From assembly GCF_018860565.1 (NCBI RefSeq), contig NZ_JAHKPS010000029.1:181652-245651 (forward strand): a stretch of 64,000 nt of DNA, given 5' to 3'. A program made the translations under genes and the position numbers. Of this stretch, positions 1 to 60,385 are shown piece by piece. Position 1 is the stretch's first letter; the number at the start of each line of letters is the position of its first letter. Below the pieces are notes generated by a model, which was not told where the DNA came from, did not search any database, and was given only the letters and a program-made list of their open reading frames with translations. The stretch is from Winogradskyella psychrotolerans (GTDB lineage Bacteria; Bacteroidota; Bacteroidia; Flavobacteriales; Flavobacteriaceae).

Positions 1-11
1 TAACTTCTTAG

Positions 12-19
12 TATATTTG
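12..19 (+). promoter_or_regulatory. Putative -7 box for trkA-trkH
   Basis: TATATTTG is a perfect match to the Bacteroidota -7 consensus TAnnTTTG. Transcription would begin near position 23-26, which puts the conserved leader element (43-119) inside the 5' UTR of trkA. The -33 element would lie outside the window. Confidence 0.5.
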
Positions 20-42
20 TACGCTTATTTCAATGAAGTAAA

Positions 43-119
43 ATGAAACGAGCATGTTCAAAATGAGATCTGCCCAAGGTATGATTAATTGCGAGCCGCA
101 TGTGACTTTTTAAAAACAA
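43..119 (+). promoter_or_regulatory. Conserved leader element, copy 1 (MKRAC leader)
   Basis: Blocks in order are ATGAAACGAGCATG (43-56), ATGATTA (81-87), CGA (92-94), ATGTGAC (100-106) and AAAAACAA (112-119). The same blocks, in the same order and almost the same spacing, recur at 57998-58072 before an unrelated gene. The first block opens a tiny reading frame M-K-R-A-C-S-K-stop (43-66). GCATG (52-56) can pair with CATGT (99-103) counting one G-U pair. The element lies between a perfect -7 box and the trkA start at 133. I do not recognise it as a named riboswitch; a leader-peptide attenuator or other cis-regulatory RNA is an inference. Confidence 0.6.
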
Positions 120-132
120 TAAATGTAAACAC

Positions 133-1482
133 ATGAAAATAATTATTGCAGGTGCAGGAGAAGTTGGATTTCATTTGGCAAAATTGTTGTCTTACGAGTC
201 GCAAGAAATCACCTTAATTGATACCAAAAAAGATAGTCTGAGTTACGCTGCTGAGCACTTGGATATTAGAACTATTAAAGGTGATGCTACGTCTATTGCG
301 GTTTTAAGAGATGCGCGTATAGATACTGCCGCTTTATTTATAGCTGTAACATCCTCGGAAACCACAAATATTACAGCATCTGTTTTGGCAAAGCAGTTGG
401 GTGCGAAACGGACAATAGCTCGTATTTCAAATACCGAATTTATAGATAATAAAGAAACGGTTGGATTTTCTAAATTTGGGATTGATGAATTAATTTCACC
501 AGAATCTTTGGCTGCTTCTGAAATAGGATTACTTTTAAATCAGTATGGTTTTAATGATACCTATGAGTTTGAAAACGGAGCATTAACCATGTTGGGGTTA
601 CGTTTGTCTCGAACAGCAACCTTTGTTGACAAAACAGTAAAAGAAGCTGCAGAAATCTATCCGGAATTAAATTTTATCCCTATTGCAATTCAACGATTGG
701 GAACGCAATATACTATAATACCTCGTGGTGATACTATTTTTAAAGAAGGCGATAAAGTTGTTTTTATGACTTCTAAAAGTGGTGATGAGGAATTATTTAA
801 ATTATCAGGAAAAGTTAAAGTTACGATTAAAAATGTTATGGTTCTTGGAGGAAGTCAAATAGGTTTTCAAACGGCTAAAGATTTGTGTTCGAGTAAGTTT
901 AATGTAAAACTGGTAGAAAGTAGAAGAGGTAAAGCTGAAGAATTAGCAGAAGATATACCAAGTGCTTTAGTTATTTGCGGTGATGGCAGAAATGTGGACA
1001 TTTTAGATGAAGAAAATATTTCAGATATGGATGCCTTTATTGCTGTTACGGGTAATTCTGAAACCAATATTATGTCGTGCCTTTTAGCAAAGTCTAAAGG
1101 TGTAAAGAAAACTATAGCCTTGGTTGAAAATATGGATTACTATCAATTATCGCAATCTATTGGGATTGATACTTTAATTAATAAAAAATTATTAGCTGCA
1201 AATAATATCTTTAGATACATTAGAAAAGGAGAAGTGGTTGCTATGACCAAGTTAACTAACATGAATGCAGAACTTTTAGAGTTTGTGGTTAAGGAAAAAT
1301 CTAAAATTACGAATAAGGTTATTAAAGATGTAAAATTTCCAAAATCCGCGATCATTGGTGGTGTAATTAGAGATGGAAAAGGATCAATTCCATTAGGAAG
1401 TTTCAAAATTCAACCTGGTGACCGTGTTGTAGTTTGTTGTTTGCCTCGGTCTATTTCTGAAGTAGAACGTTTTTTTTCTTAA
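133..1482 (+). CDS. trkA: Trk system K+ transport protein TrkA
   Basis: Cytoplasmic NAD(H)-binding regulatory subunit that gates the TrkH K+ channel. It has the duplicated RCK layout: a first Rossmann TrkA_N domain with GAGEVG at residues 7-12 and a TrkA_C domain, then a second nucleotide-binding half from about residue 235 (VLGGSQIG) and a second TrkA_C domain ending at 449. The length equals that of full bacterial TrkA (about 450-460 residues). The gene ends 7 bases before trkH, so the two are almost certainly one transcript. A conserved leader element precedes it. Confidence 0.95.
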   Translation: MKIIIAGAGEVGFHLAKLLSYESQEITLIDTKKDSLSYAAEHLDIRTIKGDATSIAVLRDARIDTAALFIAVTSSETTNITASVLAKQLGAKRTIARISNTEFIDNKETVGFSKFGIDELISPESLAASEIGLLLNQYGFNDTYEFENGALTMLGLRLSRTATFVDKTVKEAAEIYPELNFIPIAIQRLGTQYTIIPRGDTIFKEGDKVVFMTSKSGDEELFKLSGKVKVTIKNVMVLGGSQIGFQTAKDLCSSKFNVKLVESRRGKAEELAEDIPSALVICGDGRNVDILDEENISDMDAFIAVTGNSETNIMSCLLAKSKGVKKTIALVENMDYYQLSQSIGIDTLINKKLLAANNIFRYIRKGEVVAMTKLTNMNAELLEFVVKEKSKITNKVIKDVKFPKSAIIGGVIRDGKGSIPLGSFKIQPGDRVVVCCLPRSISEVERFFS

Positions 1483-5735: not shown

Positions 5736-6830
5736 TTAAGCCATACTTGGCTTTTTACCTAATTCTTTTAATTGCTGATAATGCTCCGAAATAGCTGTCC
5801 AAATAGAATTGTATTCGTTATAAGGTAAACTAAATTCATGAGCAGTTTCTCTTACTATTTTTGCAATATTTTTGTAATGCACATGGCTAATATTTGAGAA
5901 TAAATGATGTTCTACTTGTCTGTTTAAGCCACCAGTGTAAAACTCTACAATCCAACTTTTAGGTGAGAAATTAGAGGTTGTGAATAATTGATGAATAGCC
6001 CAAGTATTTTTCATATTTCCATCTTGGTCTGGTAAAGGCATTTCTGTATTTGGCATTACATGTGCTAATTGAAAAATAACACTTAGAATAATTCCAGCTG
6101 TATAATGCATAATTAGAAATCCAATTAAAACTTGCCACCATGCATAACCTAAAACTAAAGGTAATACCACCCAAATAGAGTAGTATAATATTTTACCAAT
6201 AATTAACTTTGTCCATTGTGTTGCAGGATTAGGAAATTCACCATAAGATAACTTTCTTTTAAGGTATTGGTAGGTTTGTTTAAAATCGGTGGTAATAGCC
6301 CAGTTAACCGTTAATAAACCGTATAATAAAAAGGCATAATATTTTTGATATTGATGAATTTTTAACCATTTAGAATGTTTAGAAAAACGAATAATTCGTC
6401 CTGCATCAATGTCTTCATCATGTCCTTGGATATTTGTATAAGTGTGGTGTAAAACGTTGTGTTGTACTTTCCAGTTATAGTCGTTACCAGCTAGTATATG
6501 TATGCTGCTTCCCATAAGTTTGTTTACCCATTTTTTACTAGAAAATGAGCCATGGTTTGCGTCGTGCATAACATTCATGCCTACACCTGCCATTCCAATA
6601 CCAATAACCATCATGCATATAATCTGTAGCCATGCTGGTAGATCAACTGTCAACAATACAACTAAAGGGCCAAGTAATAAAGCAAACATTATTATTGCTT
6701 TTATGTAGAGTTTCCAGTTGCCTGTTTTTTTAATATTATTTTCTTTGAAGTAGTTGTTAACGCGTTTGTTTAGGGTTTTAAAGAACTTAGCAGAGTCTGT
6801 TCTAGAGAATTTTACGGTTTGTTGTGCCAT
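5736..6830 (-). CDS. Membrane fatty acid desaturase (acyl-CoA/acyl-lipid type)
   Basis: Integral-membrane di-iron desaturase of 364 residues that introduces a cis double bond into fatty acyl chains. The three histidine boxes are clear: HDANH (89-93), HNVLHH (124-129) and QVEHH near the C-terminus. The Q in the third box is typical of front-end and linoleoyl-CoA desaturase relatives. Hydrophobic segments at about 43-62 and 67-87, and two more in the second half, fit the family topology. It heads a minus-strand unit with the aminotransferase gene. The bond position made cannot be told from sequence. Confidence 0.88.
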   Translation of the reverse strand: MAQQTVKFSRTDSAKFFKTLNKRVNNYFKENNIKKTGNWKLYIKAIIMFALLLGPLVVLLTVDLPAWLQIICMMVIGIGMAGVGMNVMHDANHGSFSSKKWVNKLMGSSIHILAGNDYNWKVQHNVLHHTYTNIQGHDEDIDAGRIIRFSKHSKWLKIHQYQKYYAFLLYGLLTVNWAITTDFKQTYQYLKRKLSYGEFPNPATQWTKLIIGKILYYSIWVVLPLVLGYAWWQVLIGFLIMHYTAGIILSVIFQLAHVMPNTEMPLPDQDGNMKNTWAIHQLFTTSNFSPKSWIVEFYTGGLNRQVEHHLFSNISHVHYKNIAKIVRETAHEFSLPYNEYNSIWTAISEHYQQLKELGKKPSMA

Positions 6831-6887
6831 TAGAATATAAATTATTTATTGTTATAACGTAAGGGATTTTAATTCATTATAACAATA

Positions 6888-6914
6888 CAAAGATAGTTAA
6901 TAAATAAAAAGCAA
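6888..6914 (-). promoter_or_regulatory. Putative promoter of the desaturase-aminotransferase unit
   Basis: On the minus strand TATCTTTG (6888-6895) matches TAnnTTTG perfectly, with a TTG (6912-6914) 16 bases upstream as a possible -33 box. It is divergent from the rsmG promoter. Confidence 0.5.
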
Positions 6915-6935
6915 CCATTATTGAAGAATGTTAAA

Positions 6936-6963
6936 TTGTAAATCTTAAAAAGAATTACTTTTG
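6936..6963 (+). promoter_or_regulatory. Putative promoter of rsmG
   Basis: TACTTTTG (6956-6963) matches TAnnTTTG perfectly and a TTG at 6936-6938 sits 17 bases upstream. The start codon at 6978 leaves a leader of only about 10 bases. Confidence 0.5.
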
Positions 6964-6977
6964 CAGAAAGACAACTT

Positions 6978-7607
6978 ATGGAATTGATTCTAAAATATTT
7001 CCCCAATTTAACGGAAAACCAAGTTCAACAATTTGAAGCTTTAGAGCACTTGTACAAAGAATGGAACAGTAAGATAAACGTAATTTCACGCAAGGATATA
7101 GATGAATTGTATCTGAGACATGTGTTACATTCATTAGGGATTGCAAAGGTCATAAATTTTGTTCCAGGTTCTTCTATTTTAGATGTTGGTACAGGTGGCG
7201 GGTTTCCTGGTGTGCCTTTGGCTATTTTATTTCCAGAAAGCCAATTTCATTTGGTAGATAGTATTAATAAAAAATTAAAAGTAATTAATGCTGTTTGCGA
7301 AGCAATAGAACTTACCAATGTAAAAACAACGCATAGTAGAGTAGAAGCTATTGATGAACACTTCGATTTTATTGTGAGTAGAGCTGTTACTACAATGCCA
7401 GAGTTTACTACTTGGGTAAAGGGTAAAATTGCAAAAAACCAAAAAAATGAATTAAAAAATGGAATCCTATATCTTAAAGGTGGTGATTTAACGGAAGAAT
7501 TAAAACAGTACAAAACGGTAAAGGCCTTCTTGTTATCAGACTATTTTAAAGAACCATTTTTTGAAACTAAAAAAGTTATTCATTTACCTTTAAAGTATAA
7601 AGTCTAA
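6978..7607 (+). CDS. rsmG: 16S rRNA (guanine527-N7)-methyltransferase RsmG
   Basis: SAM-dependent methyltransferase (GidB family) that modifies G527 of 16S rRNA. The 209 residues fit the family length. Visible features are the N-terminal YKEWNSKINVISRKD segment, the SAM-binding loop ILDVGTGGGFPGVPLAI (about residues 66-82) and VSRAVTTMPEF, the conserved SRA motif. It is a monocistronic plus-strand gene divergent from the desaturase, with its own -7 box and a downstream hairpin. Confidence 0.93.
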   Translation: MELILKYFPNLTENQVQQFEALEHLYKEWNSKINVISRKDIDELYLRHVLHSLGIAKVINFVPGSSILDVGTGGGFPGVPLAILFPESQFHLVDSINKKLKVINAVCEAIELTNVKTTHSRVEAIDEHFDFIVSRAVTTMPEFTTWVKGKIAKNQKNELKNGILYLKGGDLTEELKQYKTVKAFLLSDYFKEPFFETKKVIHLPLKYKV

Positions 7608-7631
7608 CCAGATTAGTTGTTTTCAGTAATA

Positions 7632-7661
7632 TTAAAACCCCTGAAAACAGTAGGGTTTTAA
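7632..7661 (+). terminator. Probable terminator hairpin after rsmG
   Basis: TTAAAACCC (7632-7640) pairs with GGGTTTTAA (7653-7661). The following sequence is only moderately T-rich, so efficiency is uncertain. Confidence 0.45.
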
Positions 7662-7760
7662 ATCTGTATGTTTCGGAAATTTACAACCTGAAAATAAAAG
7701 CGTGTTTACGTTTTTAGAATTTCAGGCTTACCTAATTATTGATTTTAAATTTATACTACA

Positions 7761-15006: not shown

Positions 15007-15492
15007 TTATTTAGAAAATTCTTTAATTTTTTCGTACAGTTCTAGTTCTGCACCAGGACTGTAGCCAGAGTGTTTATAAACAATCTTATTGTCTTTTACT
15101 AAAATTGTAAGCGGAATACTTGAAGCATTTAGTGCACGCTTTAAATCATTATTCGTATCTAATAAAACGGTGTAATCCCAACCTTTACCATTTACCATTG
15201 ATTTTACACGCTTTACAGTTCTACTATCATCTACTGATACAGCTAGAAGTTCTACATTGGTTTCTTCTTGCCATTCGTCGTAGATATCATTAATGGCATC
15301 CAATTCTTTTAAACAAGGTACACACCAGGTTGCCCAAAGGGAAATAATGGTAATGCCATCTTTATTAGTGGCATCTTTTAACACTATGGTTTTACCGTCA
15401 ATAGAGGTTAAGTCTACACTAGGAAGGTCGTTTTGAGCCATAGCGTTTAGACTAAATAGACTTAAGCAAAAAATAAAAATTAGTTTTTTCAT
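15007..15492 (-). CDS. TlpA-like thioredoxin-family protein
   Basis: 161-residue exported thiol-disulfide oxidoreductase. A signal peptide (MKKLIFIFCLSLFSLNAMAQ) precedes a TlpA/AhpC-TSA fold with active site SLWATWCVPCLKE (Cys57-Val-Pro-Cys60). The cis-proline loop SIPLTILV is at about residue 127. It acts in the periplasm, usually as a reductant. It is the first gene of the minus-strand unit with the DUF6029 barrel, which suggests it serves that protein or its Omp28 neighbours. Confidence 0.85.
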   Translation of the reverse strand: MKKLIFIFCLSLFSLNAMAQNDLPSVDLTSIDGKTIVLKDATNKDGITIISLWATWCVPCLKELDAINDIYDEWQEETNVELLAVSVDDSRTVKRVKSMVNGKGWDYTVLLDTNNDLKRALNASSIPLTILVKDNKIVYKHSGYSPGAELELYEKIKEFSK

Positions 15493-15682
15493 GTATTTAT
15501 AATTTGTCGTTTTTAACTAGTACATGCTGTTTGTTATAATATATTCCAGAAGGAGATAATACATTTAACAAGCTTGTATAGTAATAATTTTGAAATTGTG
15601 TTTCACAATATTAGTTAAATTATTTTCAAATGTAGTGATGTACTAAAAATTAATTATTTTAGCAAAAAACAATATAATTGCT

Positions 15683-57997: not shown

Positions 57998-58072
57998 ATG
58001 AAACGAGCATGCTAGTAAGTTTTGTCATTTATTAGAATGATTATAAACGAACGGTATGTGACATAAAAACAA
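57998..58072 (+). promoter_or_regulatory. Conserved leader element, copy 2 (MKRAC leader)
   Basis: Same blocks as at 43-119: ATGAAACGAGCATG (57998-58011), ATGATTA (58037-58043), CGA (58048-58050), ATGTGAC (58056-58062), AAAAACAA (58065-58072). The distance from block one to block two is 39 bases (38 in copy 1), and from ATGATTA to ATGTGAC exactly 19 in both. The tiny frame is M-K-R-A-C-stop (57998-58015); the cysteine codon is TGC here and TGT in copy 1, a synonymous change. The M1 peptidase start follows at 58088. Confidence 0.6.
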
Positions 58073-58087
58073 CAACAAAAAAAACAT

Positions 58088-60385
58088 ATGAAAATTTTCA
58101 AGTATTTCTTATGCGCAATGTTTTTTACATCTTTTAGTATCCATGCTCAAGATGAAATTAAATCAGAGCGTCAACAAGGTCACACCAATCAAAATAAATT
58201 CAAACAATTGTATGATGAATTTGCTACGCCCAATATGTTTAGGACAGGTTCTGGTGCTCCAGGTCCAGCATATTACCAGCAACAAGCAGATTATAAAATG
58301 GACATTGAAATAGATGATGTAAATGCTAAATTGTATGGTGACGAGATTATTACATACACTAATAATTCGCCAGATGAGTTATCATACCTTTGGGTGCAAT
58401 TGGACCAAAATATGCGTGCAAAAGATTCTAAAACTCCACTAATTAATAGTTCTGGAATTGGCCCAGCAACTACATCGTCTAGGGCTGTTAAATCGTATTT
58501 AAAAGATAGTTTTGATGGAGGTTTCAATATAGAACATGTAAAAGATACTAAAGGCAAAGACTTACCATACATGATTAATCGTACAATGATGCGTGTAGAA
58601 CTTCCAAAAGCACTGAAAACGGGAGAGCAATTTTCATTTAATATAAAATGGTGGTACAATATTAACGATCATGTTAAAGATGGTGGACGTTCTGGTTACG
58701 AGTATTTCGAAGAAAACGACAACCGTATTTATGTTATGGCTCAGTTTTATCCACGTATGGCAGTTTATAATGATGTAGAAGGATGGCAAAATTCGCAATT
58801 TTGGGGACGTGATGAGTTTGCATTACCATTTGGAAATTTTGATGTAAACATTACGGTGCCAGCAGATCATATTTTAGACGGTACAGGGTATTTAGTAAAT
58901 AGAGAAGAGGTATTTACTAAAGCTATGATGAAGCGTTATAATAAAGCAAAAAAATCTTACGACAAACCTGTAATGATTGTAACACAAGCTGAAGCTGAAG
59001 TCACAGAAAAATCTAAAAGTAAAGATAAAAAAACGTGGAAACTATCTGCTCAGATGGTTCGTGATTTTGGTTTTGCAACATCAAGAAAATTTTTATGGGA
59101 TATGATGGCTGTTAAATTAGAGACTAAAGATGTTATGGCTGTATCTCTATATTCTAAAGAAGGTAATCCTTTGTGGGAACAATGGTCTACAAAATCTGTA
59201 GCAAGTACGTTAAAAACATACTCTCGTATGACTTTTGATTATCCATACCATAAAGCTATTTCTGTACATGCACCAATGGGAATGGAATATCCAATGATAT
59301 GTTACAACTTTGGTCGTCCAGATAAAGATGGTAATTATTCTGATAGAACCAAATACGGAATGATTAGCGTTATTATACATGAAGTAGGACATAACTTTTT
59401 CCCAATGATTGTAAACAGTGATGAGCGTCAATGGACATGGATGGATGAAGGTTTAAATACATTTAGTCAGTATGTAGCAGAACAAGATTTTGCAGAATGG
59501 TATCCTGATGCATTATCTCCAAACGATAAAACCTACCCTTCTAGACGTGGACCTGCTAAAAATATCGTAAGATATATGGGAGGTAACCAAGATTATATTG
59601 CACCAATTATGACTAAAGGTTTAAATACCTATCAATTTGGAAATAACGCTTATGGAAAACCAGCGACAGCATTAAATATATTACGTGAAACTGTTATGGG
59701 ACGTGAATTATTTGATTATTCTTTTAAAGAATATGCAAACCGTTGGAAATTTAAGCACCCAACTCCAGAAGATTTTTTCCGTACCATGGAAGATGCTTCG
59801 GCAGTAGACTTAGATTGGTTTTGGAGAGGTTGGTTTTATACAACAGATTACACAGACATAGGAATTAAAGAGGTTAAGAAGTTCGCCGTTACTAATAATC
59901 CAAATGAGAATGGTAAAAAGCTAGCAGAACGTTATAATATGAATCCAAACAGTTTAGTATATTTTATAGAAGAAGGTGCTGAAGGTTATGATGATGCAAT
60001 GAAAGCTAAAACATCTATCGAAGATTTACCTACGGTAAAAGAGTATATCATGGATAATTTTACACCTGAAGAGCAAAAGGCATTAAAAAAGGCACCTAAA
60101 TATTTCTACCAAGTTACTTTTGATAAGCCAGGCGGATTGGTAATGCCACTTATTGTAGAGTACACTTATGGTGATGGTACTAAAGAAAGAATAACCTATC
60201 CTGCACAAGTATGGAGACTCAATGATAAAGAAGTGAGTAAAGCCATTGCTAGTGAAAAGGAAATAGTTTCTATAGTTGTAGATCCCGACTTAGAAACAGC
60301 AGATGTAGATACCTCTAATAATTCTTGGCCAAAAGAAGTTAAGGCAAGTGATTTTGATAAATTTAAGAATAAATCAAAGGATTAA
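58088..60385 (+). CDS. M1-family metallopeptidase
   Basis: 765-residue exported zinc aminopeptidase-type protein. Signal peptide MKIFKYFLCAMFFTSFSIHAQ. The zinc site HEVGH is at residues 431-435 in IIHEVGHNFFPMIVN, with the third ligand Glu454 in WMDEGLNTFSQYV (HExxH-x18-E). The substrate-binding loop is GMEYP rather than GAMEN. It is likely periplasmic and trims peptides. Preceded by the conserved leader element and followed by a strong terminator. Confidence 0.92.
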   Translation: MKIFKYFLCAMFFTSFSIHAQDEIKSERQQGHTNQNKFKQLYDEFATPNMFRTGSGAPGPAYYQQQADYKMDIEIDDVNAKLYGDEIITYTNNSPDELSYLWVQLDQNMRAKDSKTPLINSSGIGPATTSSRAVKSYLKDSFDGGFNIEHVKDTKGKDLPYMINRTMMRVELPKALKTGEQFSFNIKWWYNINDHVKDGGRSGYEYFEENDNRIYVMAQFYPRMAVYNDVEGWQNSQFWGRDEFALPFGNFDVNITVPADHILDGTGYLVNREEVFTKAMMKRYNKAKKSYDKPVMIVTQAEAEVTEKSKSKDKKTWKLSAQMVRDFGFATSRKFLWDMMAVKLETKDVMAVSLYSKEGNPLWEQWSTKSVASTLKTYSRMTFDYPYHKAISVHAPMGMEYPMICYNFGRPDKDGNYSDRTKYGMISVIIHEVGHNFFPMIVNSDERQWTWMDEGLNTFSQYVAEQDFAEWYPDALSPNDKTYPSRRGPAKNIVRYMGGNQDYIAPIMTKGLNTYQFGNNAYGKPATALNILRETVMGRELFDYSFKEYANRWKFKHPTPEDFFRTMEDASAVDLDWFWRGWFYTTDYTDIGIKEVKKFAVTNNPNENGKKLAERYNMNPNSLVYFIEEGAEGYDDAMKAKTSIEDLPTVKEYIMDNFTPEEQKALKKAPKYFYQVTFDKPGGLVMPLIVEYTYGDGTKERITYPAQVWRLNDKEVSKAIASEKEIVSIVVDPDLETADVDTSNNSWPKEVKASDFDKFKNKSKD

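Follow-up and report, generated by a model that had tools for sequence, protein, structure and literature searches.

A dispersed unit of about 90 bp at gene start codons in Winogradskyella psychrotolerans, probably a short mobile DNA that becomes a structured 5′ leader

The window analysed here is a 64-kb stretch of Winogradskyella psychrotolerans DNA that opens with the leader of trkA, and a preliminary description had noted five sequence blocks shared by this leader and that of a second gene. All five blocks occur in the same order at 43-119 and 57998-58072. The 14-base block, ATGAAACGAGCATG, matches exactly at 43 and 57998, and allowing up to two mismatches adds no further window match; these two matches compare with a shuffle mean of 0.40 (two or more in 4 of 100 shuffles), and a form of this block, ATGAAACGNGCNTG, has these two places only in the whole 3.9-Mb genome. 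From ATGATTA (81-87; 58037-58043) to ATGTGAC (100-106; 58056-58062) there are 19 bases in both copies, and the ATG start codons at 133 and 58088 lie 26 and 25 nt past the end of the ATGTGAC block, so that the order, the spacing of 19 bases and the position about 25 bases before a start codon are as first described at both places. The features of the window are collected in Table 1. Upstream of the element, TATATTTG at window 12-19 bears what we take to be a resemblance to a promoter −7 box. Within window 1-400, a sigma-70 scan gave one promoter-like match, equal to shuffles, and a search for terminator-like sites gave none. A run of N lies just before window 1-17 (locus L001), upstream of trkA, flanked by the inverted repeat AATATACTAAGAAGTTA / TAACTTCTTAGTATATT.

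Table 1. Coordinates of the three element copies in the window, their parts and the adjoining genes
Feature	Position	Strand	Basis
TATATTTG, likely −7 promoter box of trkA	12..19	+	resemblance to the motif; present in most empty sites too
Copy 1, both ATGAAA flanks included	43..138	+	profile 82.4 bits, E 9.3e-23; empty site in 25/30 congener trkA loci
Native ATGAAA of trkA (start codon and codon 2), which at present opens the MKRAC mini-ORF	43..48	+	empty sites: native leader runs into ATGAAA/G of trkA
GAGCATG block; GCATGTT (52-58) can pair with 97-103 (P1, weak support)	50..56	+	alignment, pairing counts
ATGATTA block, 3′ side of weak middle hairpin P3	81..87	+	alignment
CATGTG, 5′ arm of hairpin P2	99..104	+	covariation, RNAalifold
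CACATG, 3′ arm of P2; ATG 133-135 is the present trkA start codon	130..135	+	covariation, RNAalifold
trkA (TrkA_N/TrkA_C), 449 codons and stop	133..1482	+	domain matches
Thioredoxin/TlpA-like protein (161 aa plus stop), start codon provided by copy 3	15007..15492	-	no NCBIfam model above cut-off
Copy 3, more diverged; P2 arms CATGTA 15526-15521, TACATG 15495-15490	15487..15578	-	profile 26.0 bits, E 3.7e-5
Copy 2; P2 arms TATGTG 58055-58060, CATATG 58085-58090	57998..58093	+	profile 58.8 bits
Start ATGAAA of secreted M1-peptidase-like protein	58088..58093	+	Pfam M1 21.1 bits, under cut-off 27.7

The two window leaders are members of a dispersed family of about 90 bp. A sequence-only profile (R1), built from six copies (alignment A2), detected 21 copies at E < 1e-4 in the source genome (41 places listed overall), before unrelated genes. 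The preliminary view of two copies was right in that both are real, but they are two of these 21, and one more lies within the window. Each of the 21 copies ends in an ATG (ATGAAA in 19 of them) with which an ORF of 63 aa or more begins. The second half of the element, ATGATTANNNNCGANNNNNATGTGAC, was found at 16 places in the source genome when up to three mismatches were allowed; a third exact copy stands before a TraB/PrgY/gumN gene, and near copies stand before tgt, dapD and a DPP IV gene. The host genes, several of whose names are backed by searches and others are our own reading, encode TrkA, the M1-like peptidase, TraB/PrgY/gumN, TGT, DapD, DPP IV, Asd, exonuclease III, a methionine aminotransferase, an NAD(P)H-hydrate enzyme, GldD, an OmpA/PorE-like protein and a thioredoxin-like protein. 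Control of K+ uptake genes, the theme first proposed, does not fit a set in which TGT, DapD, DPP IV, Asd, exonuclease III, GldD and others carry the element, although it is found at trkA itself in 8 genomes. A short non-autonomous unit in many dispersed copies is what a MITE would present.

The preliminary description had proposed a search for further copies in related genomes, and 31 of 36 congeners proved to hold them. Profile R1 at E ≤ 1e-4 gave matches in 34 of 60 genomes, i.e., the source, these 31 congeners and 2 of 23 others of the order; the matching congeners hold 1-35 copies per genome, the range in the genus being 0-35. Eleven genomes chosen from pattern loci contained 76 (Lutibacter MAG NORP71), 50, 37, 37, 27, 18, 8, 2, 1, 1, and 0 copies at E ≤ 1e-3 (for both the 60-genome and the 11-genome searches, individual matches are among the matches listed). 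Over named genomes, a degenerate pattern found at least 119 stretches, which are uninformative on the loss of the 5′ ATG because the pattern fixes ATGAAACGAGCATG. The pattern matches listed come from Winogradskyella, Lutibacter, Lacinutrix, Bizionia, Gelidibacter, Algibacter, Kordia, Aquimarina, Psychroserpens and others, together with a few MAGs labelled Salinivirgaceae, Prolixibacteraceae, Bacteroidales, Chlorobiota and Ignavibacterium, and a MAG may contain foreign contigs. No match to the element was obtained in viral contigs, for which the scan required exact blocks, or in plasmids and phages, for which the single query L123 was used.

The trkA loci were read in 30 of the 38 genomes of the genus. 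The site is empty in 25, where trkA (22 with ATGAAA, 3 with ATGAAG) directly follows its native leader, which usually contains TATATTTG, and filled in five (the source genome, G005, G016, G029, and G026), where the order is leader, ATGAAA or a decayed form of it, element, ATGAAA, trkA. Filled and empty orthologous sites are likewise a MITE property. The comparison indicates that the upstream ATGAAA is the host gene's own, and that MKRAC is an accident of its joining to the first bases of the element; the inserted unit of copy 1 is 90 bp (43-132, equivalently 49-138). A sixth filled trkA of the genus is found in G021 (L081), and trkA is filled also in two other Flavobacteriaceae MAGs (L103, L143). 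The element or a subtype thereof is present at trkA in 8 genomes (L019, L081, L103, L143, L243, L245, L251, and L263); besides L103 and L143, these are six of the 31 congener genomes read. Since these fills belong to different subtypes, trkA was probably hit more than once. Eight cases look like more than would be expected for one gene of thousands, and the apparent excess may be explained by site quality or benefit.

Other sites show the same behaviour. Five metF loci carry the element, and an empty metF site was seen in a distant genome (L102, 66% protein identity). Head-to-tail arrays of two to four units occur, with a single shared ATGAAAC at every joint, and the Winogradskyella MAG G061 contains many near-identical copies. 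At the G061 locus L319, the downstream frame has a weak match, below cut-off (E 0.0014), to the uracil-DNA-glycosylase family that covers its C-terminal end only; it looks as though this copy had split the uracil-DNA-glycosylase-like gene. Terminal inverted repeats, a further MITE property, were looked for in two copies: window copy 1 has none, and L123 has only an internal 7-nt pair. We also compared conservation at inherited sites. In the metF group (5 loci), the element is 85%, the first 150 coding bases 84%, and the upstream 80 bases 55% conserved; the values are 95%, 92%, and 84% in the xth group (2 loci), and 84%, 79%, and 84% in the NAD kinase group (4 loci), whose upstream stretch looks partly coding. 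The conserved 5′ leader first described is borne out here in that the blocks are kept at inherited sites where the upstream flank has diverged (metF, 85% vs 55%). The metF values fit a constraint on the leader after capture; gene conversion could do likewise.

We then classified the insertions by their targets. In 179 non-array copies, the bases before the left ATGAAA are A at −3 (58%), T at −2 (53%), and T at −1 (62%). Among 196 classified insertions, counted with an element pattern that misses decayed copies (only 5 copies in the source genome), 170 are at start-like ATGs, 5 are in frame inside genes, and 21 are elsewhere, compared with 275 start-like sites among 2189 background ATGAAA sites outside elements (12.6%); this background was drawn from locus L053 onward and takes in gene interiors, where insertion would harm, so the start-codon excess mixes target choice and selection. 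In the MAG G061, 14 of 25 insertions are start-like. Our reading of these sequences is that insertion would be sequence-directed and that copies would survive mainly where the ATGAAA of the element can serve as a new start, although there may also be a direct preference for start codons.

The predicted structure of the element was assessed on alignment A4, for which 239 collected elements were reduced to 65 (without N, 84-104 nt, less than 86% alike) and then to 58, with L074, L076, L077, L100, L104, L111:5995-6096, and L136:2863-2952 left out by hand. On the 58 aligned elements, RNAalifold returned exactly six pairs, which join CATGTG, within the ATGTGAC block, to CACATG (P2). In P2, 97.4% of the cells are paired, and 12 cells are changed on both sides in three of the six pairs (7, 4, and 1 cells). 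In this alignment the distant forms were deliberately placed first, which raises the visible covariation: P2 together with the weak P3 has a covariation score of 0.192 vs 0.138 in shuffles and 16 cells changed on both sides vs 4.8, both values being reached by 0 of 500 shuffles. The number of P2 and P3 pairs with double changes, five, is not unusual, as 88 of 500 shuffles and one slid version also reach five. Compensated forms of P2 include CATACG/CGTATG (4 copies), CATATG/CATATG (3) and CATCTG/CAGATG (2), and in the source genome CATGAG/CTCATG (L029) and CATGTA/TACATG (window copy 3, after moving one gap). Against P2, CATGTG is combined with CTCATG in 8 collected copies and with AACATG in 4; as aligned to the model, 12 of the 21 source-genome copies have the complete P2 of six pairs. 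These sequences give good evidence that a covarying hairpin, P2, would form over the new start codon, and the structured RNA leader envisaged in the preliminary description, together with the covariation proposed as its test, finds support in the P2 helix.

The other pairings are less clear. P1 (GCATGYT with AGCATGT) has 90.4% of its cells paired and double changes in one of seven pairs, and covarying structure, as looked for in a cis-regulatory RNA, was found for P2 only. P1 may act as a switch arm, with weak support; as a proven one it was rejected. When folding was compared with shuffles, the distant form L276 gave two separate hairpins, one near each end (z −3.3), and L123, which is near the consensus, gave a P1/P3 hairpin (z −3.1), while the two window copies fold no better than shuffles (z −0.09 and −0.89). 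P2 and P1, if formed, may lower or tune translation.

We consider it likely that the unit of about 90 bp is a short non-autonomous mobile DNA that replaces start codons and afterwards serves as a structured 5′ leader. The dispersal of the copies, their insertion at ATGAAA, the doubled ATGAAA, the start-codon excess, and the covariation of P2 are the observations behind this reading, by which the element is a new family of short interspersed mobile elements replacing start codons. A unit of about 84-91 bp (90 bp here) would insert at ATGAAA, preferably after ATT and mostly at gene start codons. The old ATGAAA would be left upstream, opening a dead-end mini-ORF, most often of 5 codons, while the element would supply a new A-rich initiation region that ends in ATGAAA in frame with the gene, so that the captured gene would stay translatable. 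Once resident, the element would act as a structured 5′ leader whose CATGTG forms P2 with CACATG, the stretch that contains the new start codon. For the CATGT part of this arm, the main type offers a possible second partner, GCATGYT at the other end (P1), and with P1 and P2 as alternatives, the start codon may alternate between masked and free. Transposition would presumably proceed via a folded single strand and a protein.

Two explanations without mobility were weighed against this reading. The preliminary description had raised a leader-peptide attenuator, in which ribosomes on MKRAC sense a cue and switch downstream expression. It was prompted by the short frame that ATGAAACGAGCATG opens, and 193 of 239 collected elements do begin MKRAC, many of them having been found with a pattern that fixes those letters. 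The mini-ORF is correct for both window copies, yet MKRAC is complete in only 3 of the 21 source-genome copies; of the old ATGs, 7 remain as ATGAAA/G and 3 more as ATG (any ATG, 10), and 11 are lost, one as TTG. Its length in the 239 collected elements is 5 codons in 148, 13 codons in 27, and one of 19 other lengths in 50, with 1 open and 13 without an ATG, and we rejected it as a coding unit on the 3 of 21 and on these varied lengths. Another frame, seen by eye only, opens at ATGATTA (MINSEQHV..); it was rejected too, as copies with GAATAG hold a stop. The peptide is thus not conserved, window 1-400 has no terminator-like site downstream, the mini-ORF begins with the host gene's native start codon, and the host genes share no common pathway, all of which makes attenuation extremely unlikely. 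A vertically inherited regulon, i.e., an immobile leader (a riboswitch or protein-binding RNA) under selection before co-regulated genes, would explain the conserved blocks, the P2 covariation, the conservation at inherited metF sites, and the filled trkA of L103, L143, and six of the 31 congener genomes that were read. It is at odds with empty sites that have an intact native leader, with 0-35 copies within one genus, with tandem arrays and near-identical bursts, and with the copy that splits an apparent gene, and we regard it as very unlikely.

If the unit is mobile, as we prefer, a protein would presumably move it, and two transposase families were examined. The first is the IS200/IS605 type (Y1, HUH), which has been proposed to mobilise REP elements by working on a folded single strand. 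Such a transposase would suit a unit with no terminal inverted repeats, a sequence-specific target, tandem arrays and, in L276, the distant form, one hairpin close to either end (z −3.3). Of the 38 genomes of the genus, 12 carry Y1 transposases, as do 4 of the 6 high-copy genomes from outside the congener set, and for REP elements passages of a survey report no obvious correlation of such genes with repeat families (PMC3733652). On the other side, no Y1 gene was found in 3 of the 6 congeners that have 21 or more copies, or in 2 of the 6 high-copy genomes from elsewhere (without Y1: G000, G005, G009, G065, and G066); in G000, the source genome, PF01797 had no match at E ≤ 1e-5, and the RAYT (Y1) gene looked for is thus missing. 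None of 42 Y1 loci scanned is bounded by the element's ends, and one has an ordinary element nearby. A Y1 mobiliser is therefore possible but doubtful.

An IS110-family bridge-RNA-guided recombinase whose guide reads ATGAAAC would be a further candidate, suggested by the MAG G061. There, the left end of an IS110 (Pfam DEDD_Tnp_IS110) immediately adjoins the element's 3′ end in 5 of 5 cases, and the only complete copy of this IS110 carries CACATGAAAC in the 3′ noncoding region, which looks as though its guide RNA had used the repeat as target. The loci are L116 (rc about 6130-7700), L310, L312, L316, L317, and L324, L116 and L312 being one place. The element-linked type was found in 1 of 18 genomes (G061 only), its presence at element copies in all 5 places fits an IS that uses the element as target, and the IS110 genes that 9 of the 38 genomes in the genus contain form a different group, with attC-like repeats next to them in the loci read (30 of 33 fetched), which suggests that these IS110 elements target integron attC sites. 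We therefore judge an IS110 mobiliser quite unlikely. Y1 and IS110 were both set aside as helpers, as neither has a consistent link with the element, and no related autonomous transposon was found among the two families. The attC-like repeats beside IS110 (..TTATACACG..TTGTTG..) occur, among the loci listed, at L365, L366, L368, L375, L377, and L382, and also in the source genome (G000:C30, C21).

Rickettsia palindromic elements sit in frame inside genes and resemble the present element as tiny repeats tolerated at gene-sensitive positions; our element differs in that it sits at, and replaces, the start codon. Classical MITEs are similarly short and gene-free, with insertion polymorphism and direct repeats at their ends, but the element has no terminal inverted repeats, and its 6-bp repeat is a fixed ATGAAA and not a random target duplication. 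The preliminary description left room for a known Rfam family; no family reached its gathering score within the window, and permissive E-values gave nothing at the element in window 1-400 and 12 loci. Among the open-licence PMC papers listed, no title or opening of an abstract describes the element, and no text was found to contain its 13-16 letter motifs. Flavo-1 RNA (RF01705) is, according to passages of PMC2864571 and PMC9723704, also a dispersed structured RNA motif of Flavobacteria, in part in 5′ regions; it is unlike the element in sequence, and its 4 places in the source genome (3 over cut-off) are not among the 41 profile places. Flavo-1 was rejected as an identity for the element, where no covariance model matched over its gathering score. 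REP/RAYT repeats are short, dispersed, structured, high in copy number and probably non-autonomous too, as described in passages of PMC3733652; measured against the same passages, the element, as seen on the alignment, has no GTAG or CGTC tag and is not a 20-40 bp palindrome. It further differs from REP in inserting at ATGAAA, in carrying a start codon, and in having no RAYT tied to it.

The mobile-leader reading has consequences for annotation. The element would explain why unrelated genes across much of a bacterial family have a seemingly conserved leader, and the mapped leaders of many genes in that family would be insertions. We know of no other mobile element that aims at start codons and returns a working one. 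A further-reaching version would make the unit a selfish mobile translational switch that captures start codons with a bistable leader of its own (P1 vs P2) and may move as a folded single strand, which an enzyme of a type new to such repeats would cleave within ATGAAA, or even at the RNA level; we think this unlikely, and if it were true, the spread of the element would rewire the translation of many unrelated genes at once. The dispersed copies also offer a natural set of the same leader before different genes, in which start-codon choice could be followed in bacteria without Shine-Dalgarno sequences. In Flavobacterium johnsoniae, passages of one study report an underrepresentation of AUGs close to start codons, and better initiation where the start codon is surrounded by less structure (PMC6847099); the element adds both extra AUGs and structure.

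Variants of the element were also seen among the collected loci. Two subfamilies, type B (L037, L082, L084, L115, and L204) and type C (L081, L251, and L263), differ in the 5′ half, which reads ATGAAACATCCAT..ATGGATG in type B and ATGAAACCGACATGGTT.. and kin in type C, and have the 3′ half CATGTGACC..ACACATGAAA in common. Other small palindromes (CTGCCTGCGGCAGGCAG, TCCCGATARYTATCGGGA, and alike) are nested in the element at L106, L178, L191, L193, L170, L136, L154, L190, and L144, often at one same place that adjoins GCGAAC/CATGTGAC. A second tiny repeat, ATGAA[CT]TTTAAACATAATTTATTCGTATGAAA, is present in L116 and L322 and is likewise bounded by ATGAA and ATGAAA.
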